From contig JALFJR010000047.1 of assembly GCA_022775005.1 (NCBI GenBank), positions 20,325 to 84,324 of the forward strand: a stretch of 64,000 nt of DNA, given 5' to 3'. Position numbers and translations under genes: made by a program. Position 1 is the stretch's first letter. Each line of letters opens with the position of its first letter. This document shows positions 846-58,353 of this stretch, piece after piece. Origin of the DNA: Parabacteroides sp. (GTDB lineage Bacteria > Bacteroidota > Bacteroidia > Bacteroidales > Tannerellaceae). The notes beneath the pieces are model-generated. The model was not told the DNA's origin and did not search any database. It saw nothing but the letters and a program-made list of their open reading frames with translations.

Positions 846-1448
846 ATGATTTGGAAAAAACATATCTATGTAGGACTGTTATTCAGCGGATCACTGTTCG
901 CTGAAGCACAAACCGTAAAAACCAACATTGTTCCAGAAGGTTATCAACGGGCACAGGTGGTGAATGGAGATACTGTGCCGGTGGTCAACCTCAGAGAGGT
1001 GTATGTTTATCCACCTGTTAAATTCAAGAATAAAAGGCAACAATATCAATACAATAAGTTAGTGAGAGATGTGAAACGTACCCTGCCCTACGCCAAACTG
1101 ATTTATGAAACACTTATAGAAACCTACGAATACATAGAGACTTTACCCACTGAGAAGGAGCAACGAGCGCACCTGAAACGGATGGAGAAGGAACTGTTCG
1201 AACAATATAAACCGGAGTTGAAAAAGATGACCCTTTCACAGGGTAAACTACTTATTAAACTGGTAGATAGGGAGTGCAATCAATCGGCTTACAACTTAGC
1301 GAAAGCCTTTTTAGGTCCCTTCCGTGCCGGCTTCTGGAACATCTTTGCCGGTATGTTCGGAGCCAGCCTCAAATCTGAGTATGACCCCAAAGGAAAAGAT
1401 GCCCAGACCGAACGGGTAGTGGTGCTTGTGGAGAACGGGTTAATCTGA
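846..1448 (+). CDS. DUF4294 family exported protein
   Basis: About 200 residues starting MIWKKHIYVGLLFSGSLFAEAQ, a signal peptide. The mature protein contains NLREVYVYPP followed by a helical, charged stretch (KRQQYQYNKLVRDVKRTLPYAKL) and ends near LVDRECNQSAYNLAK, the pattern I associate with the Bacteroidetes DUF4294 family, whose function is unknown. The track starts the frame at a TTG at 837, but that lies inside the -7 box, so I use the ATG at 846. The stop overlaps the convergent TrmH gene by 9 bases. Confidence 0.75.
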   Translation: MIWKKHIYVGLLFSGSLFAEAQTVKTNIVPEGYQRAQVVNGDTVPVVNLREVYVYPPVKFKNKRQQYQYNKLVRDVKRTLPYAKLIYETLIETYEYIETLPTEKEQRAHLKRMEKELFEQYKPELKKMTLSQGKLLIKLVDRECNQSAYNLAKAFLGPFRAGFWNIFAGMFGASLKSEYDPKGKDAQTERVVVLVENGLI

Positions 1449-1970
1449 TAGTTGCTTAAAGAAATCCCAGATCACAATACCTGTCGTCACGGAGACATTC
1501 AACGAATGTTTCGTGCCATATTGAGGGATTTCAACACATAAGTCACAACGATCCACTACCTCTTGTTGTACACCCTTCACCTCATTGCCCATGATGATGG
1601 CATATTTCTTTTGCTTGTCTAACTGCAATTTATCCAGCATTACACTACCTTCTGCCTGCTCCACGGCACAGACGATGTAACCTGCCTCATGCAACTTTTC
1701 AACAGCTTCCTGTGTATTGTTGAAATACTGCCAGTTCATACTGTCTTCTGCTCCTAAAGCAGTCTTATGAATCTCGGCATTCGGTGGACAAGCGGTAATC
1801 CCACACAGGTAAATCGCTTCTACCCGAAACGCATCAGCTGTACGAAAGACAGATCCCACATTATTCAAACTTCGTACATGATCCAACACTACAACCAAAG
1901 GAATCTTTTCGCAGGCTTTGAAAGCCTCCGTTGTCAATCGATTCAACTCTGTTACTTTTAACTTTCTCAT
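1440..1970 (-). CDS. TrmH/SpoU family RNA 2'-O-methyltransferase
   Basis: A 176-residue SPOUT methyltransferase, predicted to transfer a methyl group from S-adenosylmethionine to a ribose 2'-OH of tRNA or rRNA. The three family motifs are present: LDHVRSLNNVGSVFRTADAF near the N-terminus (motif 1), IIMGNEVKGV (motif 2) and IPQYGTKHSLNVSVTTGI (motif 3), which together form the trefoil-knot cofactor site. The length suits the short TrmL/TrmH-like members that lack an N-terminal substrate-binding domain. The exact target nucleotide cannot be told from sequence. It is convergent with DUF4294 (9-base overlap) and has a TACTTTTG -7 box about 20 bases upstream. Confidence 0.88.
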   Translation of the reverse strand: MRKLKVTELNRLTTEAFKACEKIPLVVVLDHVRSLNNVGSVFRTADAFRVEAIYLCGITACPPNAEIHKTALGAEDSMNWQYFNNTQEAVEKLHEAGYIVCAVEQAEGSVMLDKLQLDKQKKYAIIMGNEVKGVQQEVVDRCDLCVEIPQYGTKHSLNVSVTTGIVIWDFFKQLSD

Positions 1971-1990
1971 AGCTCATTTTTCTTTGTCCG

Positions 1991-1998
1991 CAAAAGTA
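1991..1998 (-). promoter_or_regulatory. -7 box of the TrmH gene
   Basis: CAAAAGTA on the plus strand reads TACTTTTG on the minus strand, 20 bases upstream of the ATG at 1970. Confidence 0.5.
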
Positions 1999-2464
1999 AT
2001 CAATATCCGTTGAAACCCGGTTGAAAAGCGTTGGATAAGTCGTGAATAGAAAATGAAAAATAAAACTTGCAGAATCCAGAAAGTCGTCCATACATCCCCC
2101 TTCTCTTTTCCTCCAAATAAATAAGCTTTTTCTTTGAGACCTCGTTTCAACATCGGTTTTACACCAATCTACCCCCCTTTGACTATCCTATTTTTTCCAC
2201 AAATCCTCTTTTCAACAATGAACAGCTAAATGCGAATATCAGAGCTAATCCATAGAAAACAAAACTTTTTCAAAGCGATTGGTTTGTTCTTTTCGTATGG
2301 ATAACGGTTACTCTTATCTTAATAAGTTGATGGGCAAACTTTCGATCCAAAAACTTTTAACGGTTTCAACACCCCATCATATACATCCTTTTTTCTAATT
2401 AAAGAGAGAATAAATTAAACCTATATATAAATATGATGTGTGGAAAACGGGGGAAAAGAACTGT

Positions 2465-2494
2465 TTTGTATCCCAAGGAAAGTTTATACCTTCG
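2465..2494 (+). promoter_or_regulatory. nadA promoter (-33 and -7)
   Basis: TTTG at 2465-2468 and TACCTTCG at 2487-2494, 18 bases apart, a good match to the Bacteroidetes sigma factor promoter. It argues that the GTG at 2438 used by the ORF track, which is upstream of the promoter, is not the start. Confidence 0.65.
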
Positions 2495-2542
2495 CGCCGT
2501 ACGGATAACAGCCGTGATAACAACAATCAAAAAGTGAAGGTT

Positions 2543-3529
2543 ATGGAAAAGAACCAGTCAATAGGGTATATGGATGTACCCGTTCCGAAAGATGTAAATT
2601 TGAAGGAGGCGATTGATCAGTTGCGCAAGGAGAAGAATGCGGTGATCTTGGCGCATTACTATCAAACAGGCGATATACAAGACATTGCCGATTATGTAGG
2701 CGATAGCTTGGCATTAGCACAGTGGGCCGCCAAGACGACAGCCGATATTATTGTGCTTTGTGGTGTGCATTTCATGGGTGAGACCGCTAAGATTCTTTGT
2801 CCGGAAAAGAAGGTGCTGGTGCCCGATTTGAATGCCGGTTGTTCTTTAGCAGATAGCTGTCCGGCGGAAGAGTTTGCGCAATTCGTGAAAGCGCATCCCG
2901 GTCATACAGTCGTTTCCTACGTGAATACGACAGCAGCGGTGAAAGCGGTGACCGATGTGGTAGTGACCTCTACCAATGCCCGTCAGATTGTGGAGAGCTT
3001 CCCCGAGGGTACACCGATGATCTTTGGTCCCGATCGCAACTTGGGTAATTATATCAACAGCATCACCGGCCGAAACATGTTGCTTTGGAATGGCGCTTGC
3101 CATGTGCATGAGCAGTTCTCGTTGGAGAAGATTCTATCCTTGAAGAAGGAGTATCCCGAGGCTGAGGTGATCACCCATCCGGAGTGTAAACGACCGATTA
3201 TTGAGATCTCCGACTTCGTAGGTTCTACGGCTGCACTCTTGAAACATACGATCAAGTCTGAGAAGAAACAGTTCATCGTAGCTACGGAGAGTGGTGTGAT
3301 TCATGAGATGCGTAAGCAGAGCCCGGAGAAGGAGTTTATCCCCGCACCTCCCAACGATAGCACCTGTGCTTGCAACGAGTGCAACTTCATGCGCTTGAAC
3401 ACGATGGAGAAGCTCTACAACTGTTTGAAATATGAGCTTCCCGAGATCTTCGTGGACGAGGAGGTGCAGAAGCAGGCGATTAAGCCGATTCGCAAGATGC
3501 TGGAGATCTCAGCACAATTAGGGCTGTAA
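2543..3529 (+). CDS. nadA: Quinolinate synthase A
   Basis: A 328-residue [4Fe-4S] enzyme that condenses iminoaspartate (made by NadB) with dihydroxyacetone phosphate to give quinolinate in de novo NAD synthesis. Family landmarks are ILAHYYQTGDIQDIADYVGDSL near the N-terminus, IIVLCGVHFMGETAK with the first cluster cysteine, WNGACHVHEQF with the second, THPECKRP, and CACNECNFMRLNTMEKL with the third. The ATG at 2543 is chosen because the promoter lies at 2465-2494; the longer track frame would start before it. A YitT gene follows after 4 bases. The partner nadB is in this window too, but 11 kb away and on the other strand. Confidence 0.95.
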   Translation: MEKNQSIGYMDVPVPKDVNLKEAIDQLRKEKNAVILAHYYQTGDIQDIADYVGDSLALAQWAAKTTADIIVLCGVHFMGETAKILCPEKKVLVPDLNAGCSLADSCPAEEFAQFVKAHPGHTVVSYVNTTAAVKAVTDVVVTSTNARQIVESFPEGTPMIFGPDRNLGNYINSITGRNMLLWNGACHVHEQFSLEKILSLKKEYPEAEVITHPECKRPIIEISDFVGSTAALLKHTIKSEKKQFIVATESGVIHEMRKQSPEKEFIPAPPNDSTCACNECNFMRLNTMEKLYNCLKYELPEIFVDEEVQKQAIKPIRKMLEISAQLGL

Positions 3530-14715: not shown

Positions 14716-16290
14716 TTACTTCTTCTTGGGGGGATAGTCGATCGTGTAGTGCAAACCGCGACTCTCCTTGCGCTCCATCGCTTGACGGGTGATCAAGTAA
14801 CCCACGTTGATCATGTTGCGCAACTCGCAGAGCTCACGCGAAGCCTTGCAACGCTTGAAGAGCTTCTCCGTCTCCTCGTAAAGGATGTCGAGGCGGTTCC
14901 AGGCACGGATCAAGCGGGTATTGCTACGCACGATACCCACATAAGCCTCCATGATCTGATTCACCTCCTTCATGCTCTGCGTGATCAATACACGCTCCTC
15001 GTTGGAGATGGTGCCCTCATCGTTCCACTCGGGGATATCTTGCTCGAAATCGTAGCGATCGAGCACGCTCAAGGAGTGCTTAGCGGCTGCGTCCGCATAG
15101 ACCACGGCCTCAATGAGTGAGTTGGATGCCAAGCGGTTACCACCATGCAAGCCGGTGCAAGAGCACTCGCCAATCGCATAGAGGCGACGGATGCTGCTCT
15201 GTCCGTCCAGATCCACTTTGATACCTCCGCAGAGGTAGTGTGCCGCCGGCGCTACGGGGATGTAATCTTTCGTGATGTCGATGCCCAAGCTGAGGCACTT
15301 CTTATAGATATTGGGGAAGTGACGTTTGGTCTCCTCTGGGTCTTTGTGGGTCACGTCGAGATAGACATGATCCTCACCCCGTTGCTTCATCTCGCTGTCG
15401 ATGGCACGTGCCACGATGTCGCGTGGCGCGAGGGAGAGCCGCGGGTCATATTTCTGCATGAACTCCTCGCCACTCAGGTTGCGGAGCACTGCCCCATAGC
15501 CACGCATGGCCTCGGTGATCAAGAAGCTGGGGCGATCGCCCGGATGGAAGAGGGCCGTCGGGTGGAACTGGATGAACTCCATATCTTTCACCGCACCCTT
15601 CGCACGATACACCATGGCGATGCCATCGCCCGTGGCCACCAAGGGGTTGGTCGTGTTCCGATAGACCGCCTCGCAACCGCCGGTCGCCATCACGGTGATG
15701 CGTGAGAGGAAGGTATGCACCTCGCCCGTCTCCTCGTTCAAGACGTAAGCGCCATAGCACTTGATGCCCGGTGTGTGGCGAGTCACGATAATGCCTAAAT
15801 GGTGCTGCGTGATAATCTCTACGGCATAATGGTTGGTATATACCTTAATATTCGGATGCGCCTGCACGGCACGGATCAAGCTGGTTTGGATCTCTGCGCC
15901 GGTATTGTCGGCATGGTGCAAGATGCGAAACTCCGAGTGGCCACCCTCCTTGTGGAGGTCGAACTCGCCATCCGCCTTCTTGTCGAACTGTACTCCCCAG
16001 TTAATCAATGCTTTAATCTGTTCCGGGGCTTCCCGAACTACTTTCTCTACGGCCGCGCGATCGCTGATCCAGTCACCCGCGATCATCGTGTCTTCGATAT
16101 GTTTCTCGAAGTTATCCACCTTCAGATTGGTCACTGAGGCAATGCCTCCCTGGGCGAAGTAGGTGTTGGCCTCTTCCTGACCTGCCTTGCAGATGAGCGC
16201 CACACTGCGTCCCTCGTTGGCTACCTTCAAGGCGAAGCTCATGCCCGCGATGCCGGAGCCTATCACTAAGTAATCGTATTTCTCTACCAT
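14716..16290 (-). CDS. nadB: L-aspartate oxidase
   Basis: 524 residues. This flavoprotein oxidises L-aspartate to iminoaspartate, the first step of de novo NAD synthesis, and passes it to NadA. The FAD-binding dinucleotide fold is YDYLVIGSGIAGMSFALKVA, followed by NTYFAQGGIASV, the fumarate reductase-like catalytic region HKEGGHSEFRILHHADNTG, the substrate loop FIQFHPTAL, and LCGGIKVDLDGQSSIRRLYAIGECSCTGLHGGNRLASNSL. The last 100 residues form the helical C-terminal domain. The gene is single, leftward, and preceded by the 818-base gene-free stretch with the parS-like site. It has a near -7 box at 16318 and possibly a distant one at 16666. Confidence 0.96.
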   Translation of the reverse strand: MVEKYDYLVIGSGIAGMSFALKVANEGRSVALICKAGQEEANTYFAQGGIASVTNLKVDNFEKHIEDTMIAGDWISDRAAVEKVVREAPEQIKALINWGVQFDKKADGEFDLHKEGGHSEFRILHHADNTGAEIQTSLIRAVQAHPNIKVYTNHYAVEIITQHHLGIIVTRHTPGIKCYGAYVLNEETGEVHTFLSRITVMATGGCEAVYRNTTNPLVATGDGIAMVYRAKGAVKDMEFIQFHPTALFHPGDRPSFLITEAMRGYGAVLRNLSGEEFMQKYDPRLSLAPRDIVARAIDSEMKQRGEDHVYLDVTHKDPEETKRHFPNIYKKCLSLGIDITKDYIPVAPAAHYLCGGIKVDLDGQSSIRRLYAIGECSCTGLHGGNRLASNSLIEAVVYADAAAKHSLSVLDRYDFEQDIPEWNDEGTISNEERVLITQSMKEVNQIMEAYVGIVRSNTRLIRAWNRLDILYEETEKLFKRCKASRELCELRNMINVGYLITRQAMERKESRGLHYTIDYPPKKK

Positions 16291-16317
16291 TTTCTTTCTA
16301 TCGTTGCTTTAGGCGCA

Positions 16318-16325
16318 CAAAATTA
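16318..16325 (-). promoter_or_regulatory. Proximal -7 box of nadB
   Basis: CAAAATTA on the plus strand reads TAATTTTG on the minus strand, 27 bases upstream of the nadB ATG. Confidence 0.45.
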
Positions 16326-16447
16326 GGAATTAACTGAAAAGGTTGTCATTTTTCGCTTGATTTTTTGCCCTTTTTCCTTGCGTGGATAGGGCTACTATTG
16401 CCCGATAGTAGGGCGGGAAACGGCATTTAGTAGCGCAGTTTTCCGAA

Positions 16448-16463
16448 TGTTCCACGTGTAACA
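16448..16463. other. parS: parS-like ParB-binding site
   Basis: TGTTCCACGTGTAACA fits the conserved chromosomal centromere pattern TGTTnCACGTGnAACA at every fixed position. The pattern is known from many phyla and is bound by ParB, which loads SMC and separates origins. The site is intergenic, as the only match I found in the window. ParA and ParB are not encoded here, so function is inferred from the sequence alone. Confidence 0.7.
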
Positions 16464-16665
16464 TTTTGTGGAGCAGTGCCTGAAAAAGCCGCTAAACCCT
16501 TGATACTATGCTGCTAAAGCCGATTTTCACTGTTCAACGAAAAGTGTGCAACGAAATAGATACATAGCGCACACAATACCTTTTAGGTGAATTAATAAAT
16601 AGTTGATTATCAGGATTGAATCGTAGGTGGGATTGCGCAGGGAAAAGGTTCCATTTCCCTGAGCG

Positions 16666-16695
16666 CAAAGGTACGCGTATTTTCCTAATCACCAA
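16666..16695 (-). promoter_or_regulatory. Distal leftward promoter upstream of nadB
   Basis: On the minus strand TTG (plus-strand 16693-16695) and TACCTTTG (16666-16673) are 19 bases apart. A transcript from it would cross the parS-like site and reach nadB with a leader of about 370 bases, or could be a separate RNA. Confidence 0.5.
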
Positions 16696-16975
16696 GGGTT
16701 GCGCACAGAAAAAGATGCGTCACCCCATTTTTATGAACAAGCCCTTTGGTTTGCGCGACGAAAGCACCGATTTCTTACATAACTTCGCTTGCTCCTGTTT
16801 GTACGTCATTCGCAAACAGCTCACTATCTGTGTCTTTGCGGGCTTGACCCGCAAGCTCATCCTCGCTCCATCTAACGCAACACGTTGCGTCCCTACCCCT
16901 TTTATTGAATGAAATGACGGGGCAATATTGGCAGGACAAAAGGGTCAAAAAATACCCCTTTTGCTCTACGGTGAC

Positions 16976-17007
16976 TGCTCAACGAATGTGAACCTTTTCG
17001 TTGAGCA
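16976..17007. repeat. 10-bp hairpin upstream of the DUF6383 gene
   Basis: TGCTCAACGA (16976-16985) and TCGTTGAGCA (16998-17007) are exact reverse complements with a 12-base loop. No T-run follows on the plus strand, so an operator or mRNA structure is as likely as a terminator. Confidence 0.6.
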
Positions 17008-17108
17008 ATGACCAACCTGGAGGGTTTCCCATTTTCCCAATGTGATGAAGAAGAACAAGAACAACGTATTTAGTAATACATTTTTTATTAACATCTAAAT
17101 TATTTATT

Positions 17109-20100
17109 ATGAACAAAAAGTTCTTTACTTTGGCAGCCGGCTTGTTGCTGACATCTGCGTTTACCGCAAATGCTGCAAGCGTAAGCTTGGCGAATTCTAA
17201 GAAAGGGCAGTATGTCGAGATCAAGGTAGGCACAAATGCCTTACAGATCAAGAGCAACAATGAGCTGGAAAAAGCAGCTGTTGCTGATGTGACTACTGCT
17301 AAGACGTTGGAAGCTGCTTTTGATCAGCAGAGGCAGATCGCTTCTCTGAAGTATGATACCAACTCTGGAACACCTATCTACCAGTTCGTAAACAAAGGTA
17401 CAGGTCAGTACTTGGCAATCAATTTGAAAACCAATAACAAGGGTGCTTCTACTTCCGTTGCAAAAATCAATGCAGCAGGTAACAAGGATTGGTGTGTAGA
17501 TGCTGCTGGTCACCTTTATGTTTTCCAGAATGACTCAACTTACACATTGGACAGCAATTTAAAGTTGGTTGCAAAGAAAGGTAATCAAGTTCCTTCAACT
17601 GCAGAAACTTTTACAATTGCGCAACGTGATGGTGCTGTCGACTTGAATGCAGCTATTTTGAATGCATTGATGGGTAAGGCTGGTAAGCTCTATTTCAATG
17701 GTGAGGATGTAACGGATGGTGAGAAAAATCTGATCGCTGATCATACGTGGAAGGCTTATCAGGAGGCTACAAATACATCATTGGGTATGGTGTTGGCTGC
17801 TCAGGATAAGGACAGCACGGATATCAAGAACCCGTATGTATTGGTTGTGGATACGGTTTTCTACAAGGGTCAAAATACCTATCATTCTTTGAAGTTGGAT
17901 ACTTTGGCATTGACTCCTGCTCAGGTTAAGAGCTTGAAGAAGAATGAGTGGGCTTACACAGCGAATACTTACAACACCGCTAAGCCTGCGAAGTTTGCTC
18001 ACCAAGCAAAAGCTGCTCTTTGGAATGGTACCTATACATTAGGTAACGACTCTATTGCGTTGGCAGTGGTAGGTGAGCCAAAGGTTTCTGCTATGGTTTC
18101 TGCTATTACTAATGGTACTTATAACTTGGGACAAGCAGAGGGTGCGTTAACAGCTGATATTAGCGTTGTTTGGGCTAACTATCCGAATTTTGGAACTGTA
18201 ACCACGAATTTTGAATCTGCTGCTGCCTCTGATGCTAAAACAGCTGTTAGTTATTTGCAAGCTGCTTTGACTGCTTGGGCAGGTATTGGATCTGCTGATG
18301 CCGAAACTGACTATTTGAAGTATACGATTGCTGCTTCTAAGTTCACTTCAGAAGGTGCTTTGGCTACTTCTTCTACGAATGTTTCCTATCAGGATCTTTT
18401 GAATGCTGCTAAGACAAAGTTGGATGCCGTAACCGATAAGAAATCAACCGATTATAAGGCATTGAAGGCTTATTATGACATGGCTGATGACTTGAAGACT
18501 TTGAAGCGTACGTATTCTGCAGCTAGTGTGAATTATTATCATTCTGAAGGTGCTGCTTACGCTGAAAGTGTTGAGTCGAATGCCGGTGTTGTAACTCTCG
18601 CTCAGTTGAGTAATACAAAGGTATTGACTGTTAAGGCGGAAATTACTTCAACAAATCACCAGGGCACTGTTATGCCGCTCATCCAGGCTGTTTCTACCAA
18701 GGGTGGTGACGCTGTGATCGACGGTAACGGTAAGGTTTACTTCATGCAGTTGGCTTCTGAGCCGGAATCAGACTTGCGTGCTACTGCTTTGAAGGGCAAA
18801 TATGTTGTAGCTGATCCGAATACAACGGTAATGTTCGACTTGGCTGACGAGGTAGATGCTGCTAACGTATATGCACAGTGGGGCTTCATCGAGGGCGCAA
18901 CCGGTTACTATCAGATCGTGAACCGCGCTACGGGTGATGCTGTTTCTCTACCGATCAACAAGACTACAAAGGCTGGTGTTTATGAGATCGATGGTGAGGA
19001 GTATCGCTTGATCGAGGTTGACCTCTCTAACGCAGACATCCGCGAGGAGAAGGGTGTGAAGTATGACTACACGGGCTTCTATTATGGTGGTCCGGCTGAT
19101 GGCGTTAGCCAGAGCTTCCAGATCACTCCGGCTTCTGCATTGCTTTCTAACGTAGCTGTTCAGTTCAACAAGTATAGCGTATTGGTATTGGGTAGCGCTG
19201 AGAACGCTCCGGTATGGTATCTCGAAGGTGGTGACAAGACCGAGATTTGGGGTGCTGAGATTCCGGGTCTGCCGCAGTTGAAGCGTGTAAAGGGTTACAA
19301 GATCTACACGAAGGATGCTGATGACAAGAAGTACTATGTATATGCTACAGCTACTGCTCCGAAGGTATATGCTATCACAAAGGCTGAGTATGCAGGAGAT
19401 GCTTCTGAGTTCAAGTTCCAGACACAGGCCGCTAACGCTTATCTGTTCGTGGATGGCGCAAATAAGGCTACTATCAACTTGAACCTGAATGTTCCGACGA
19501 TCGAGGTATCTAGTGTTACTAATGAGCGCAACGACTACTTCAGCTTCGCGAAGAGCGAGTATAGCGACTACCGCACATTGGTAGCTGAGGATGGCTTATT
19601 AGGCAACGCGAAGATCTACATGGAGAACGAGCCTAACCGCTACCTCTATGAGAACACGAAGAACATCGTGGCTAACAACGGTAACGGCATCGCTAAGGAT
19701 AGCTTGAACTTCTTGGGTATCTATAACACAGCCGCTTCTGTTCAGAACGCAGCACTCTATGTAGATACCGCTTATGTAGATCGCAAGGACAACACTCGTC
19801 CGCAGTATATGTTGGCAGTAGGCGTAACTGAGGTAGCTGCTACTGAGGGTCACGCTTGCACCGAGAGCGGCAAGCACTTCGACGCTGACGGCAAAGAGAC
19901 AACCGCTGACAAGTGCGTACACGCAACTCCGGGCACTGAGGGTTACAAGACTGGTCGTTACTTGGTAACATTGCAGGATTCTGTAGCTACTGGCTTCACG
20001 AAGCATCCGGCATTGTATGATGGCAACTATCGTTTGGCATTCGTTGAGGCTAAGCACATCAAGGATACGTTGGAGATCGCTAACTCTAAGTTCACTGTAG

Positions 20101-20528
20101 AGGATCACAGCGCAGATACGATCAAGATTGGTAAGGATCTGAAGAAGGCAACCTTTGCGTTGAAGATCGTTGATCAGGCAACGAAGAGCTTCGTGATGGA
20201 GACAGAGAATAAGACTTACGTTCGCATCTTGAACGGTGTTCCTGTCTTGACTTCTAACATCAACGACACAGCTGTATTCAACATCGAGGCTACTACTGAG
20301 GAGCCGACCGCTAACGAGGTAATCGCTGCTGAGGGTGTTCAGGTAATCGCTGGTAAGGGTACTGTAACTGTACAGGGTGCAGCTGGTAAGGTGATTACCG
20401 TAGCTAACATCTTGGGTCAGACGATCGCTAACCAGGTAGCTGCTTCCGACAACGTAACGATCGCTGCTCCGGCAGGTGTAGTTGTAGTTGCTGTTGAAGG
20501 CGAGGCTACGAAGGTAGTGGTTAAGTAA
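17109..20528 (+). CDS. Large secreted DUF6383-type surface protein
   Basis: 1139 residues with signal peptide MNKKFFTLAAGLLLTSAFTANA. The body has no catalytic motif that I recognise; two stretches, YQFVNKGTGQYLAI near residue 95 and YYQIVNRATGDAVSL near 600, look like related lectin-style repeats. A cysteine pair occurs in a charged loop near residue 920 (HACTESGKHFDAD). The last 75 residues (VQVIAGKGTVTVQGAAGKV, ILGQTIANQ, ending TKVVVK) match the DUF6383/type IX-like sorting domain typical of Parabacteroides. Codon use differs between halves: the first half is rich in GCT, AAT and GAT, the second in AAC, GAC and ATC, which suggests recombination between paralogues. It is monocistronic, with a terminator at 20699. 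Confidence 0.8.
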   Translation: MNKKFFTLAAGLLLTSAFTANAASVSLANSKKGQYVEIKVGTNALQIKSNNELEKAAVADVTTAKTLEAAFDQQRQIASLKYDTNSGTPIYQFVNKGTGQYLAINLKTNNKGASTSVAKINAAGNKDWCVDAAGHLYVFQNDSTYTLDSNLKLVAKKGNQVPSTAETFTIAQRDGAVDLNAAILNALMGKAGKLYFNGEDVTDGEKNLIADHTWKAYQEATNTSLGMVLAAQDKDSTDIKNPYVLVVDTVFYKGQNTYHSLKLDTLALTPAQVKSLKKNEWAYTANTYNTAKPAKFAHQAKAALWNGTYTLGNDSIALAVVGEPKVSAMVSAITNGTYNLGQAEGALTADISVVWANYPNFGTVTTNFESAAASDAKTAVSYLQAALTAWAGIGSADAETDYLKYTIAASKFTSEGALATSSTNVSYQDLLNAAKTKLDAVTDKKSTDYKALKAYYDMADDLKTLKRTYSAASVNYYHSEGAAYAESVESNAGVVTLAQLSNTKVLTVKAEITSTNHQGTVMPLIQAVSTKGGDAVIDGNGKVYFMQLASEPESDLRATALKGKYVVADPNTTVMFDLADEVDAANVYAQWGFIEGATGYYQIVNRATGDAVSLPINKTTKAGVYEIDGEEYRLIEVDLSNADIREEKGVKYDYTGFYYGGPADGVSQSFQITPASALLSNVAVQFNKYSVLVLGSAENAPVWYLEGGDKTEIWGAEIPGLPQLKRVKGYKIYTKDADDKKYYVYATATAPKVYAITKAEYAGDASEFKFQTQAANAYLFVDGANKATINLNLNVPTIEVSSVTNERNDYFSFAKSEYSDYRTLVAEDGLLGNAKIYMENEPNRYLYENTKNIVANNGNGIAKDSLNFLGIYNTAASVQNAALYVDTAYVDRKDNTRPQYMLAVGVTEVAATEGHACTESGKHFDADGKETTADKCVHATPGTEGYKTGRYLVTLQDSVATGFTKHPALYDGNYRLAFVEAKHIKDTLEIANSKFTVEDHSADTIKIGKDLKKATFALKIVDQATKSFVMETENKTYVRILNGVPVLTSNINDTAVFNIEATTEEPTANEVIAAEGVQVIAGKGTVTVQGAAGKVITVANILGQTIANQVAASDNVTIAAPAGVVVVAVEGEATKVVVK

Positions 20529-20549
20529 GTATATTCAGAAAAGACAGAA

Positions 20550-20690
20550 TATAAAGTTGGGATCCCGTGCGGTGCATCACCAAGTAGCTTGCGAAAGTGA
20601 ACAGGCGGGTTCCTTAGTTAATAATAGTGTAAAATTGAAATAATAAAGTTCTACTTGCGGAGTAGCTCCGGGAGGAGCGAACAGCAATCA
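20550..20690 (+). ncRNA. Candidate structured RNA (or structured 3' UTR)
   Basis: Non-coding, but densely structured: GGATCCCG (20560-20567) can pair with CGGGTTCC (20606-20613) and encloses GGTG-CAT-CACC (20571-20581) and CTT-GCGA-AAG (20588-20597). Downstream, CTACT/AGTAG and GCTCC-GGGA-GGAGC (20665-20678) form two more hairpins; two of the loops are GNRA. The words TTGCG and GAACAG recur in both halves. An intrinsic terminator follows at 20699. I see no convincing promoter of its own, so it may be the tail of the DUF6383 mRNA. It resembles no RNA family I can name with confidence. Confidence 0.35.
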
Positions 20691-20698
20691 CAAAAAGG

Positions 20699-20738
20699 AA
20701 AGCCGTTAGGATCATGGTCTTAACGGCTTTTTCTTGCT
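20699..20738 (+). terminator. Intrinsic terminator
   Basis: AAAGCCGTTA (20699-20708) pairs with TAACGGCTTT (20721-20730), followed by TTCTTGCTTTTTTG. Ends the DUF6383 transcript or the candidate RNA. Confidence 0.85.
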
Positions 20739-20787
20739 TTTTTGTCGTTCAAATCTCCCTAAAACGACATAGAATCGTGAAATGGTG

Positions 20788-20795
20788 TATCTTCG
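20788..20795 (+). promoter_or_regulatory. -7 box of hflX
   Basis: TATCTTCG fits TAnnTTTG with one change and ends 4 bases before the ATG at 20800, implying a nearly leaderless message or a different start. Confidence 0.4.
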
Positions 20796-20799
20796 CGGT

Positions 20800-22014
20800 A
20801 TGAAGGAGTTTATCATATCTGAAGCGCAGACCGAGAAGGCGGTCTTGGTGGGTTTGGTCACCCCGGAGCAGAATGAGCAGAAAGTGGCCGAGTATTTGGA
20901 TGAGTTGGCTTTCTTGGCGGATACAGCCGGGGTGGAGGCGGTGAAGCGTTTCACCCAGAAGTTGGATTATCCGAACTCAGTGACCTTTGTCGGTACGGGA
21001 AAGCTACAGGAGATCAAGGAATATGTGGTGGAGCATGAGATTGGTGTGGTGATCTTCGATGATGAGTTGTCGGCGAAGCAGTTGCGCAACATCGAGAAGG
21101 AGCTGCAGGTGATGATCCTCGACCGTACCAATCTGATCTTGGATATTTTCGCTAAACGTGCGCAAACCGCCCATGCGAAGGCACAGGTGGAGTTGGCGCA
21201 ATATAAATATATGTTGCCTCGTCTGACCCGCTTGTGGACCCACTTGGAGCGTCAGCGCGGTGGCGTGGGTATGCGTGGCCCGGGTGAGACGCAGTTGGAG
21301 ACCGATAAACGTATCATCTTGGATAAGATCTCTCGCTTGAAGCGGGAGCTGGTCGATATCGACAAGCAGAAGAGTGTGCAGCGGAAGAACCGTGGTAAGA
21401 TGGTGCGTGTGGCGTTGGTAGGTTATACCAATGTCGGTAAATCCACCTTGATGAACCTGCTGAGCAAGAGCGAGGTGTTTGCTGAGAACAAACTGTTTGC
21501 CACGTTAGACACCACCGTACGGAAGGTGATTATCGAGAACCTGCCCTTCTTATTGTCTGACACGGTCGGGTTTATTCGCAAATTGCCTACGGAATTGGTG
21601 GAGAGTTTCAAATCTACACTGGATGAGGTGCGTGAGGCAGATCTTTTGGTGCACATCGTGGATATCTCGCACCCCTCGTTTGAGGAGCAGATCGAGGTGG
21701 TCAATCGCACGTTGGCTGAGATTGACAAGCAGGAGAAGCCGATGATCATGGTGTTTAACAAGGTAGATGCCTTCACCTTTGTGCCCAAGGAGGCCGACGA
21801 CTTGACGCCACGCACCCGTGAGAACATTGATTTAGATGAATTGAAACGGACGTGGATGAACCGCTTACCGGGCGATTGCCTCTTTATCTCGGCCAAGGAG
21901 CGCACCAATATCGAGGCACTGAAAGCCCTGCTTTACGAGCGGGTGAAGCAGATACACATCACCCGTTTCCCCTATAACGACTTCCTCTTCCAGCATTACG
22001 AGGAGGAGGAATAA
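20800..22014 (+). CDS. hflX: GTPase HflX
   Basis: 404 residues. The N-terminal domain (residues 1-190) ends with the HflX hallmark GGVGMRGPGETQLETDKR. The G domain follows with G1 VALVGYTNVGKSTL, G2/G3 FATLDTTVRK and LLSDTVGFIRKLPTELVESF, G4 VFNKVDAF and G5 FISAKE. HflX binds the ribosome and splits stalled or inactive 70S particles. The track start at 20782 lies before the -7 box; the ATG at 20800 gives the usual length. The DUF4954 gene follows after 19 bases. Confidence 0.95.
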   Translation: MKEFIISEAQTEKAVLVGLVTPEQNEQKVAEYLDELAFLADTAGVEAVKRFTQKLDYPNSVTFVGTGKLQEIKEYVVEHEIGVVIFDDELSAKQLRNIEKELQVMILDRTNLILDIFAKRAQTAHAKAQVELAQYKYMLPRLTRLWTHLERQRGGVGMRGPGETQLETDKRIILDKISRLKRELVDIDKQKSVQRKNRGKMVRVALVGYTNVGKSTLMNLLSKSEVFAENKLFATLDTTVRKVIIENLPFLLSDTVGFIRKLPTELVESFKSTLDEVREADLLVHIVDISHPSFEEQIEVVNRTLAEIDKQEKPMIMVFNKVDAFTFVPKEADDLTPRTRENIDLDELKRTWMNRLPGDCLFISAKERTNIEALKALLYERVKQIHITRFPYNDFLFQHYEEEE

Positions 22015-54557: not shown

Positions 54558-56762
54558 TTATTTCAAGTAATCGTCAAAATAGCGGGTGATCTTCTCATGC
54601 AGATGAGGCCGGTCCTTGCCGATTACGTTGTGCTGGTGCCGTGGATAGACGAAGTAATCCGGATAGGTGTTGGCATCCACGCAGGCTTTCAAGAAGCCCA
54701 AACTGTGCTGCCAAACGACTACGGGATCCACATCGCCATGAATCAGCAGCAGATGCCCTTTGAGATTGCCCGCCTTTAATTTCAGGTTGGCATTCTTGTA
54801 CCCCTCCGGGTTATCTTGTGGCCGATCCATATACCGTTCGCCATACATAATCTCATAGTTGCTCCAATCGATCACCGGTCCTCCAGCCACACCTACCTTA
54901 AATACGTTGGGATAGGTCAACATCAGGTTGGTGGTCATGAAGCCGCCATAGCTCCAGCCATGTACACCGATCCGATCTGCGTCCACGTAGGGAAGGGATT
55001 TAAGAAAAGCTACGCCTTGCATTTGGTCGGCCATCTCGTTCACACCCAGATTACGGTGGATCACACTCTCGAAAGCATGTCCCCGATTGGCAGATCCCCG
55101 TCCGTCAACCGTGAAAAGTACATAGCCGCGCAAGGCCATGTAAATATCCCATCCGCGCACACCGTGCATCCAATCGCCAGTCACTAATTGCGCATGGGGA
55201 CCTCCATAGACATAGACAATGGTTGGATACTTTTTGTTCGGATCCAAATCGGGAGGGAGGGTCAACCGATAGTTGAGCTTTGTTTTCCCATCGGCCGCCG
55301 TGAGCGTGCCGGTTTGGATCTTCGGCATTCGGTAGCCTTTATAGGGATCGGGTGCTGTTAGCAAGGTTCGCACCACTTTTGCCTCTTTTACTCGAATGAG
55401 ATCGATCTCTCGGGGAACGGTTGAAGAGCTGACATTGTCGAGGGCGTATGCGCCTGACGGAGAGAGCTTCCAGTTATGTACACCTACCTTCCAACTGAGG
55501 CAGTTCATAAGCTCACGTTCCTTCAGGTTCACCTCCCACACATAGCGCGATAAGCCGTTGCTGTGCATGCTGGGGGAGACCGGATGAGGAGCGGTACCTT
55601 CGATGATCAGTTTATTGCCACCTTCACTGAATCCCAATATGCGGGTCACTACCCACTCGCCACCGGTCAACTTGCGCAGCTCGTTGCCATCGGTATCAAA
55701 GAGATAAAGATGATTATAGCCGTCCGCTTCGGTTTGCCAGATGAACTTGTTCGGGTCATTCGGCAAGAAGAGGATGGGCTGTTGTGGCTCCACATAGCGA
55801 TGATCGCTTTCTGTGATCAATACCGCCTCTCGCTCTCCGGTCTCTGCGGAATAGCGCACCAAGTGTTGCTCGTTCTGCTCTCGGTTCAGCTCGATGAGGT
55901 AGATGCTTCGTTCATCGGGGCTCCAGGCGATGTTGGTCAGGTATTTCTCTTTAGGCAATCCGGTTTTCAACCAGATGGTTTTCCCGGTTGCTAACTGATA
56001 AATACCCACTGTCACCTCATGGCTCTTCATGCCTGCCATCGGGTATTTATGGGGCACTAAGGTAGCACATCGGCTATCAATATTGACCAAGGGATAGGTT
56101 GTCACCATCCGTTCGTCCATCCGGTAAAAGGCCAAGGCATTTCCTTTGGGTGACCAGAATGTACCTTTCGTGATACCAAATTCCCGTTGATGCACCGCCT
56201 GCCCGCATACAATGCCCTCCTCTTGTTCGTTGGTGACGATCGTCGTATCGCCCTTGGGAGAAAGTAAGAAGAGGTTATTGCCGTTGGTGTAGGCAAAGTA
56301 TTGATTAGCCGTGCAGAAATCGAGGTTGTTCCATGCTGCCTTTAGTGCATAATCTGCCGTAACCTTTTGTTTCTGATAGTCATAATGAATCTGGTGGTTA
56401 TGACTGTTGAAGGCCAAGATCGTGCTATGTGTATCTAGCGCAAAAGGCACAGTGAAAGTCGGCAGTTTGCCCACTGTAGGCAGACTTGCCTGTGTGAGCG
56501 CCTGGTTTAACTGTTCACGGGTGAAAAGTACCTGCTCCTTTTTCTCTGGCAGGGCACCCCATACACTGTCGCCCTTCACGTAGAAATAGCGCTCACCGCA
56601 CCAATTGAGCTGTTTCAATGTTTTGGGAACGAAACGGCTGTAGCTCTTCCCGCCGGGAATGAGATCATGCAGCGTCAGCTCCTTTTCTTGTGCGGTGACA
56701 GCCATAGCCAATAGCAATGTATAAAAGACAGTTAGCAGTTGTATCCACTTAATCCTCATCAT
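54558..56762 (-). CDS. Dipeptidyl-peptidase IV family serine peptidase (S9B)
   Basis: 734 residues from the ATG at 56762. The signal peptide (MMRIKWIQLLTVFYTLLLAMAVTAQ) is followed by a beta-propeller (about 60-480) and an alpha/beta hydrolase with GVHGWSYGGFMTT (Ser), LLLIHGDVDPVVVWQHS (Asp) and the C-terminal PRHQHNVIGKDRPHLHEKI region carrying the His. It is a probable envelope dipeptidyl peptidase. The 904-residue track frame is artificial: its first 170 residues are the shadow of the adjacent methyltransferase gene. The real start overlaps that gene's stop by 14 bases. Confidence 0.9.
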   Translation of the reverse strand: MMRIKWIQLLTVFYTLLLAMAVTAQEKELTLHDLIPGGKSYSRFVPKTLKQLNWCGERYFYVKGDSVWGALPEKKEQVLFTREQLNQALTQASLPTVGKLPTFTVPFALDTHSTILAFNSHNHQIHYDYQKQKVTADYALKAAWNNLDFCTANQYFAYTNGNNLFLLSPKGDTTIVTNEQEEGIVCGQAVHQREFGITKGTFWSPKGNALAFYRMDERMVTTYPLVNIDSRCATLVPHKYPMAGMKSHEVTVGIYQLATGKTIWLKTGLPKEKYLTNIAWSPDERSIYLIELNREQNEQHLVRYSAETGEREAVLITESDHRYVEPQQPILFLPNDPNKFIWQTEADGYNHLYLFDTDGNELRKLTGGEWVVTRILGFSEGGNKLIIEGTAPHPVSPSMHSNGLSRYVWEVNLKERELMNCLSWKVGVHNWKLSPSGAYALDNVSSSTVPREIDLIRVKEAKVVRTLLTAPDPYKGYRMPKIQTGTLTAADGKTKLNYRLTLPPDLDPNKKYPTIVYVYGGPHAQLVTGDWMHGVRGWDIYMALRGYVLFTVDGRGSANRGHAFESVIHRNLGVNEMADQMQGVAFLKSLPYVDADRIGVHGWSYGGFMTTNLMLTYPNVFKVGVAGGPVIDWSNYEIMYGERYMDRPQDNPEGYKNANLKLKAGNLKGHLLLIHGDVDPVVVWQHSLGFLKACVDANTYPDYFVYPRHQHNVIGKDRPHLHEKITRYFDDYLK

Positions 56763-58353
56763 CCTCTCCGAAATCTCTTTTGAAGTTGGGTTTACCTCCT
56801 CGTTTGTCGAACGAGCGCTTGCCCTCTCGTTTGTGATCATTTTTCTTGTCACGCTTGAAGTCGCCAAACGGTTTTTTCCGATCACCGAAATCCCGCTTGC
56901 GATCCCGATCGCCGAACGACTTCTTGTGATCGCCATGCGGCTTCTCCTCTTCACTGCGATAACGCATCTTGGCGGGACGGCCTTCCCCTCTGCGACGGAA
57001 ATCCGCGTCTTCCTCCTTCTCCTCTCGGGGGCGACGGCGGCCCGGCATGGCAGCCATGCGCTCTTCCTCATTTTCGCTGTGGGCAGCGGCAAAACGGCGC
57101 TCCGGGCGGTCCATCCGGCGGCTGAAGTCGGGACGATCGGTCTTGTTGAAACGTTGTTCCCGTGGGGGACGCTGCTCCCGCTCGCCTTCTCGCTCATTGA
57201 GGGCCTTCTTATAATCTTTGTTTTTACCCTCGAACAGTTCATAACAACGATACTCACATTCCAACGAGCCATTCATCAGTTTCATCTTCTCGCAGGGACG
57301 CAGGCCGATCTTCTCGAAGCACTCCTCCTTGTAGCTGATGATCCATGCTTGATAACCGGTGAAGACATGTTTCAGTCGTTCACCGATGATGGCATACAAT
57401 CCCATCAAGTCATGCGACGAGATACGCTCGCCATAGGGTGGATTCATCACCAAGATACCGGGCTGCGGTGCCTCTTGATACTGCTGGAAAGGCATAGCCT
57501 TCAGGTTAATGTATTTCACCAATCCTGCGCTGCGGATATTCTCCAACGCAATGTCGATCGCTTGTTGGGAGATGTCGGAGCCATAGCAATGGAACTCAAA
57601 CGGACGCTCTTGGCTGTCATCGTTATAGATTCGGTCGAACAACTCCTCATCATAGTCAATCCACTTCTGGAAAGCGAATTCCTTGCGATAGATACCCGGT
57701 GCGATGTTGAGTGCGATCATAGCCGCCTCGATCAGCAGTGTGCCTGAGCCACACATCGGGTCCACGAAGTTCGACTCGCCTTTCCAACCGGTTTTCAGGA
57801 TCATGCCGGCTGCTAACACCTCATTGAGGGGTGCCTCGGTTTGATCCACACGATAACCGCGCTTGTGTAAAGACTCGCCGGAGCTGTCGATCGAAAGCGT
57901 ACAGTCGTTGTGGGAGATATGGATGTTGATATACAGATCTGGATTATTCACACGCACGGAGGGACGCTTCTGGAACTTCTCGATAAAGTAATCAACAATA
58001 GCATCTTTCGTGCGATAAGCCACGAACTTCGAGTGGTTGAAGTCCTCCGAATAGATAACGGAATCAATGGCGAAGGTCTTGTCTAATGTCAGGTATTTCT
58101 CCCACTCGATCTTCTTCACCTCTTTATAAACCGTATCCGCATCTTTTGCCTTGAAATGATAGATCGGCTTTAGGATGCGTAGGGCGGTGCGGCAACAGAA
58201 ATTCGCCTTGTAAAGCAACTCCTTGTCTCCCGTGAAAGATACCATGCGCCGACCTAATTGCAGGTCGTTGGCGCCCAAGGCTAATAATTCTCCGGCCAAG
58301 ATCTCCTCTAATCCGTACAGCGTCTTAGCCACCATTTCAAATGTCTCGTTCAT
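56749..58353 (-). CDS. THUMP-domain class I RNA methyltransferase (RlmL-N-like) with basic tail
   Basis: 534 residues. THUMP region about 60-170 (RTALRILKPIYHFKAKDADTVYKEV), then a SAM methyltransferase domain with FVDPMCGSGTLLIEAAM and the catalytic loop ILVMNPPYGERIS. It is similar to the N2-guanine rRNA methyltransferases of the RlmL/RlmKL group; the exact site is not known. After residue 390 about 140 residues are almost only Arg, Lys, Asp, Glu, Gly and Phe (for example RDRKRDFGDRKKPFGDF, KRSFDKRGGKPNFKRDFG), a disordered RNA-binding type tail that is not part of the usual enzyme. Its 3' end overlaps the next gene. Confidence 0.88.
   Translation of the reverse strand: MNETFEMVAKTLYGLEEILAGELLALGANDLQLGRRMVSFTGDKELLYKANFCCRTALRILKPIYHFKAKDADTVYKEVKKIEWEKYLTLDKTFAIDSVIYSEDFNHSKFVAYRTKDAIVDYFIEKFQKRPSVRVNNPDLYINIHISHNDCTLSIDSSGESLHKRGYRVDQTEAPLNEVLAAGMILKTGWKGESNFVDPMCGSGTLLIEAAMIALNIAPGIYRKEFAFQKWIDYDEELFDRIYNDDSQERPFEFHCYGSDISQQAIDIALENIRSAGLVKYINLKAMPFQQYQEAPQPGILVMNPPYGERISSHDLMGLYAIIGERLKHVFTGYQAWIISYKEECFEKIGLRPCEKMKLMNGSLECEYRCYELFEGKNKDYKKALNEREGEREQRPPREQRFNKTDRPDFSRRMDRPERRFAAAHSENEEERMAAMPGRRRPREEKEEDADFRRRGEGRPAKMRYRSEEEKPHGDHKKSFGDRDRKRDFGDRKKPFGDFKRDKKNDHKREGKRSFDKRGGKPNFKRDFGEDDED

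Follow-up and report, generated by a model that had tools for sequence, protein, structure and literature searches.

The 64-kb stretch of Parabacteroides DNA analysed here (the window) carries a parS-like palindrome in a long gap between two genes. Is this palindrome a chromosomal parS and, if so, is it the conserved main site of the genome or an additional one? The features that bear on this question are listed in Table 1.

Table 1. Features of the window discussed in the text
Feature	Position	Strand	Evidence or remark
SpoU-type RNA methylase, oriC-flanking	1440..1970	-	Pfam PF00588
Predicted oriC, AT-rich intergenic	1971..2542	.	Between SpoU-type methylase and nadA
nadA, quinolinate synthase, oriC-flanking	2543..3529	+	Pfam PF02445, E 9e-122
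nadB (L-aspartate oxidase, inferred from domains), FAD-dependent oxidoreductase	14716..16290	-	FAD_binding_2 E 1.1e-92, Succ_DH_flav_C
Gene-free gap, 818 bases	16291..17108	.	77 bases shared with relatives beside nadB, then lineage-specific leader of the DUF6383 gene
DUF6383 cassette (leader and gene), approximate extent	16369..20715	+	blastn and tblastn against G007:C10
parS-type site TGTTCCACGTGTAACA	16448..16463	.	Exact match to TGTTNCACGTGNAACA
Interspersed leader repeat of the DUF6383 gene family	16630..17007	+	Many copies in G000 (the window's genome) and G007
DUF6383 protein (C-terminal domain), 1139 aa	17109..20528	+	Pfam PF19910, E 1.2e-26
HflX-type GTPase, right neighbour of the cassette	20782..22014	+	GTP-bdg_N, GTP-bdg_M
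DPP IV-type peptidase gene	54558..57272	-	Second parS of relatives lies inside this gene

The exact site and the ParB of the genome

In a scan of the 64-kb window, TGTTCCACGTGTAACA agreed with TGTTNCACGTGNAACA at 14 of the 14 fixed bases without a mismatch, and the runner-up matches had three mismatches, which is the chance level. Under a first-order Markov model, 0.00023 exact matches are expected by chance per 64 kb and 0.011 per 3.14-Mb genome. The site has the form of a 16-bp palindrome, as is expected of a chromosomal parS. The fit at every fixed base claimed in the sequence-only reading is thus confirmed, with this site as the sole match in the window. The same reading described the 818-base gap as the longest in the window. 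This also holds: the gap runs from the start of nadB (16290) to the next gene (17109), and no longer stretch without an ORF of 100 aa or more was found except at the left edge. The statement that there is no second match is correct for the window but not for the genome. In the genome-wide scan that had been proposed (a 3.14-Mb draft of 109 contigs), two exact sites only were found; one is the origin-proximal site at 16448, and the second, TGTTCCACGTGGAACA, is located on contig C81 (C81:11186).

A single chromosomal parB is encoded beside parA on contig C19 (TIGR00180, E 3.4e-54). GKKR and GHAR are present in this ParB, and its relatives of solved structure are Spo0J/ParB. Arg173 and Gly201 are absolutely conserved in ParBs of the parS type (PMC7383237), and the corresponding positions are occupied by R and G here. 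The genome thus encodes, on its chromosome, a ParA/ParB pair with specificity for parS. The distance of parAB from oriC is about 580 kb in the complete relative G004. Both half-sites of the 16448 site, TGTTCCACG and CGTGTAACA, are also part of other exact sites in the genus. Therefore, ParB should bind the 16448 site by sequence, and such binding is very probable.

Position relative to the predicted oriC

GC skew was calculated at coarse and fine scale in G004, and also in a second complete relative, G016, and in the window's contig itself. The skew minimum of G004 (4,811,379 bases) is at 3,610.0 kb, between nadA and the gene for a SpoU-type methylase. The gap between these two genes (C1 ~3,609,750-3,610,430) contains two perfect DnaA boxes, TTATCCACA. 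In G016 the skew switches in the same nadA region. Perfect DnaA boxes are found upstream of nadA in many relatives, and none in the nadA coding control. The window contains the methylase/nadA pair, and the skew minimum of its contig coincides with this pair, at ~2.7 kb of the window; therefore, oriC is predicted in the intergenic stretch between the two genes. The DnaA boxes in this stretch are all degenerate, at 2193, 2296, and 2439.

The 16448 site and the middle of the predicted oriC gap are 14.2 kb apart. The site is thus near the origin, as is usual for a chromosomal parS; the evidence is the skew of two relatives together with DnaA boxes and synteny. The segment had been taken to be origin-proximal, and rightly so: the predicted oriC is even inside the window. 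In relatives, the exact sites that share a contig with nadA are located 18-257 kb from it, except for one coding match at 1.7 Mb.

Other candidates for the origin were rejected. The dnaA gene is on a contig other than that of the window, and in both G004 and G016 it is at coordinate 1, more than 0.8 Mb away from the skew switch; therefore, it is no marker of the origin. This agrees with a report that the origin of gut bacteria does not always coincide with dnaA (PMC10197239). In five relatives the midpoint of the two exact sites falls near nadB; by skew and DnaA boxes, however, oriC is located in the methylase-nadA gap. The 818-base gap has no exact DnaA boxes nearby.

Conserved parS sites of the genus and the order

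The exact motif was found in 37 of 39 genus genomes, in one or two copies each, and the reversed-pattern control gave none. Among Bacteroidales genomes the corresponding numbers were 95 of 149, with one control match. The site at C81:11186 is immediately 3' of mnmG. The end of mnmG directly adjoins the site in most of the genus loci fetched, and mnmG is adjacent to the site or inside the fetched flank in 27 of 30 Bacteroidales parS loci. The mnmG-linked site is the conserved parS, which recurs across Parabacteroides-type genomes and the order. The motif type noted at first is thus a genuine chromosomal parS in both. As a side observation on the 30 Bacteroidales loci, some have the exact parS beside mnmG in at least two copies over ~0.1-2 kb.

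Several relatives have a further exact parS inside the gene for a DPP IV-type peptidase (dpp4). In the compared stretch of seven dpp4 sequences, 83 codons have an invariant amino acid and 12 of them are identical as codons. Six of these 12 are consecutive and spell the parS motif: it is kept base for base while the neighbouring synonymous codons vary. This codon-level identity indicates that the parS DNA word itself is selected and, in turn, that selection acts on accessory parS sites close to oriC in the genus. Together with the survey counts, it shows that the motif is maintained in the genus and not scattered by chance. The dpp4 gene of the window lacks the motif, having IVTNEQ where the relatives have IVTRET.

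It should be mentioned that an exact match, TGTTGCACGTGCAACA, is present in a penicillin-binding-protein (PBP1A)-like gene of G016 (G016:C1:1786106), 1.7 Mb from the origin. This match is probably not a working parS.

A lineage-specific cassette around the site

Orthologues of nadB are found in nearly all genus genomes, and that of the sister genome G007 is 98% identical to nadB of the window. The adjoining hflX orthologue in G007 is 99.5% identical. The interval between these two genes in G007 is ~0.8 kb and contains no DUF6383 gene and no parS-like sequence; the counterpart of the cassette there is ~650 bases. Homology with G007 ends 77 bases past nadB and resumes just before hflX, which means that ~4.3 kb (~16369-20715) is lineage-specific. 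The 1139-aa protein encoded in this cassette is probably secreted, as judged from its signal-like N-terminus.

The orthologous place is without the 16448 site in G007, G031, and G004. Its absence from the closest relatives is explained by the DUF6383 cassette: the gap is part of this cassette, which is missing from the nadB-hflX interval of the sister. The idea of a parS conserved at nadB was also rejected: no match within one mismatch was found in 80 named nadB loci. The 16448 copy is not the conserved centromere, and to this extent the first reading is unsupported as it stood; the main site is that 3' of mnmG. Conservation is no defining requirement of every parS site; its lack, however, weakens the claim of selection. 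An RNA element in the gap was considered and rejected, the sole Rfam match of the window being a tRNA elsewhere.

Repeats in the DUF6383 leaders

The better copies of the leader repeat are about 76-86% identical, and the ends of the repeat form a 33-base imperfect inverted repeat. Upstream in several DUF6383 leaders of G000 and G007 there is a palindrome one mismatch from parS, TGTTCCACGGGGAACA, and at several places in these two genomes one-mismatch palindromes adjoin the leader repeat. In addition, GTTCCAC half-sites form arrays with a spacing of 11-12 bases upstream in several leaders, with up to 10 copies per leader locus against a background of ~0.12 per kb. The array pattern is confined to G000 and G007 (2 of 119 genomes). 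There are 54 copies of CGTGGAACA in G000 and 75 in G007, as compared with 19-21 in G004 and G013, and they cluster in DUF6383 leaders. The window's own DUF6383 leader has no arrays and no further half-site, just the one full site, and around this site it is too diverged to align well with the other copies.

Leaders with arrays of CGTGGAACA or TGTTCCACG were observed on contigs C9, C16, C33, C34, C42, and C105 of G000 and on C1, C4, C12, C76, and C87 of G007. A different short palindromic repeat, around GCGGGCTTGACCCGC, is located at 16831-16864 of the window. It recurs across the genus, at many places in G001 and G002, and in G002 it forms a series with a period of ~115 bases (C2:2867073-2868256).

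These repeats suggest that the site might be a chance product: leaders built of shuffled units rich in TGTTCCACG and CGTGGAACA would have given rise to one copy that drifted into an exact parS, which ParB may bind but which has no selected role. Since sister leaders contain TGTTCCACGGGGAACA and many GTTCCAC, selection would not be required for an exact site to arise in them. The one-mismatch palindromes beside the repeat, the enrichment and clustering of CGTGGAACA, and the lineage-specific nature of the cassette are consistent with this explanation; given that the site lies among a repeat family and is not conserved, a neutral origin is quite possible. However, none of the fixed bases deviates, despite the strong divergence of the surrounding leader from the other copies, the leader of the window has no other half-site, and the site is within 14 kb of oriC. 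We regard a chance product as doubtful, though deserving of serious weight.

Alternatively, the TGTTCC-NNNN-GGAACA palindrome and the CGTGGAACA arrays spaced by ~12 bases might be the operator of another DNA-binding regulator of the DUF6383 genes, so that the likeness to parS is incidental. That arrays and palindromes recur 11-12 bases apart in leaders belonging to a single gene family, and only in G000 and G007 among 119 genomes, would fit such an operator. Yet the arrays are missing from the window's own leader and no candidate regulator was found; moreover, ParB would recognize an exact parS irrespective of other proteins bound to it. This explanation seems very unlikely.

GTTCCAC is a half-parS bound by ParB in P. 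aeruginosa, where hundreds of copies are spread over the genome (PMC10419367). The arrays in the DUF6383 leaders consist of the same heptamer; unlike the genome-wide half-parS of P. aeruginosa, these putative ParB sites are clustered in the leaders of one gene family. It is conceivable, if rather improbable, that the leaders are ParB landing pads, in which phased half-parS arrays and near-parS palindromes would tie expression or spread of the cassette to ParB. The 16448 copy would then have matured into a full new centromere site by oriC, that is, a parS born from the leader of a gene family.

Discussion

The reading to which we incline, with modest confidence, is that the 16448 site is a young, ParB-bound accessory chromosomal parS, not the conserved main one. 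The exact match, the intergenic position, and the distance of 14 kb to oriC favour an accessory parS over chance. A point against a functional reading is that some relatives also have exact matches in coding sequences that are not near the origin.

As an accessory parS, the site would have come with the DUF6383 cassette between nadB and hflX or have arisen inside it. ParB would be loaded there, form a closed CTP-dependent clamp, and spread. The site would thereby contribute to the segregation of the origin region by ParA, for which the parS 3' of mnmG would be the main site. Binding in the cell, spreading, and a contribution to segregation are what we infer.

The 16448 site resembles the parS of Spo0J/ParB-type systems (B. 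subtilis, Caulobacter, P. aeruginosa) in the 14 fixed bases and in its proximity to the origin, and in both cases a parS-type ParB is encoded beside ParA. Unlike those systems, parAB here is on a contig other than those of mnmG, dnaA, and oriC, and the genome has only two exact sites. The mnmG-linked parS (C81:11186) shares with the 16448 site its consensus and the half-site TGTTCCACG; the former is conserved across the order, whereas the latter is lineage-specific. The dpp4 parS of genomes resembling P. distasonis and P. goldsteinii (presumed group names) is likewise an accessory, origin-proximal second site, and has in common with the 16448 site the half-site TGTTACACG, the complement of CGTGTAACA. 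It differs in being coding DNA, kept in several genomes and missing from that of the window, whereas the 16448 site is intergenic.

Two Bacteroidetes species examined showed no known condensin homologue (PMC10197239). Gut Bacteroidales have ParABS and parS sites, and the papers found describe few such sites. From the present analysis, three landmarks can be put to the test: the conserved parS site 3' of mnmG, the accessory one within a protease gene, and an oriC located at nadA instead of dnaA. The 16448 site belongs to a well-known type of site, of which it is a genuine but young copy within a lineage-specific cassette. It would represent an example from nature of a genome that has gained a second parS beside its origin.
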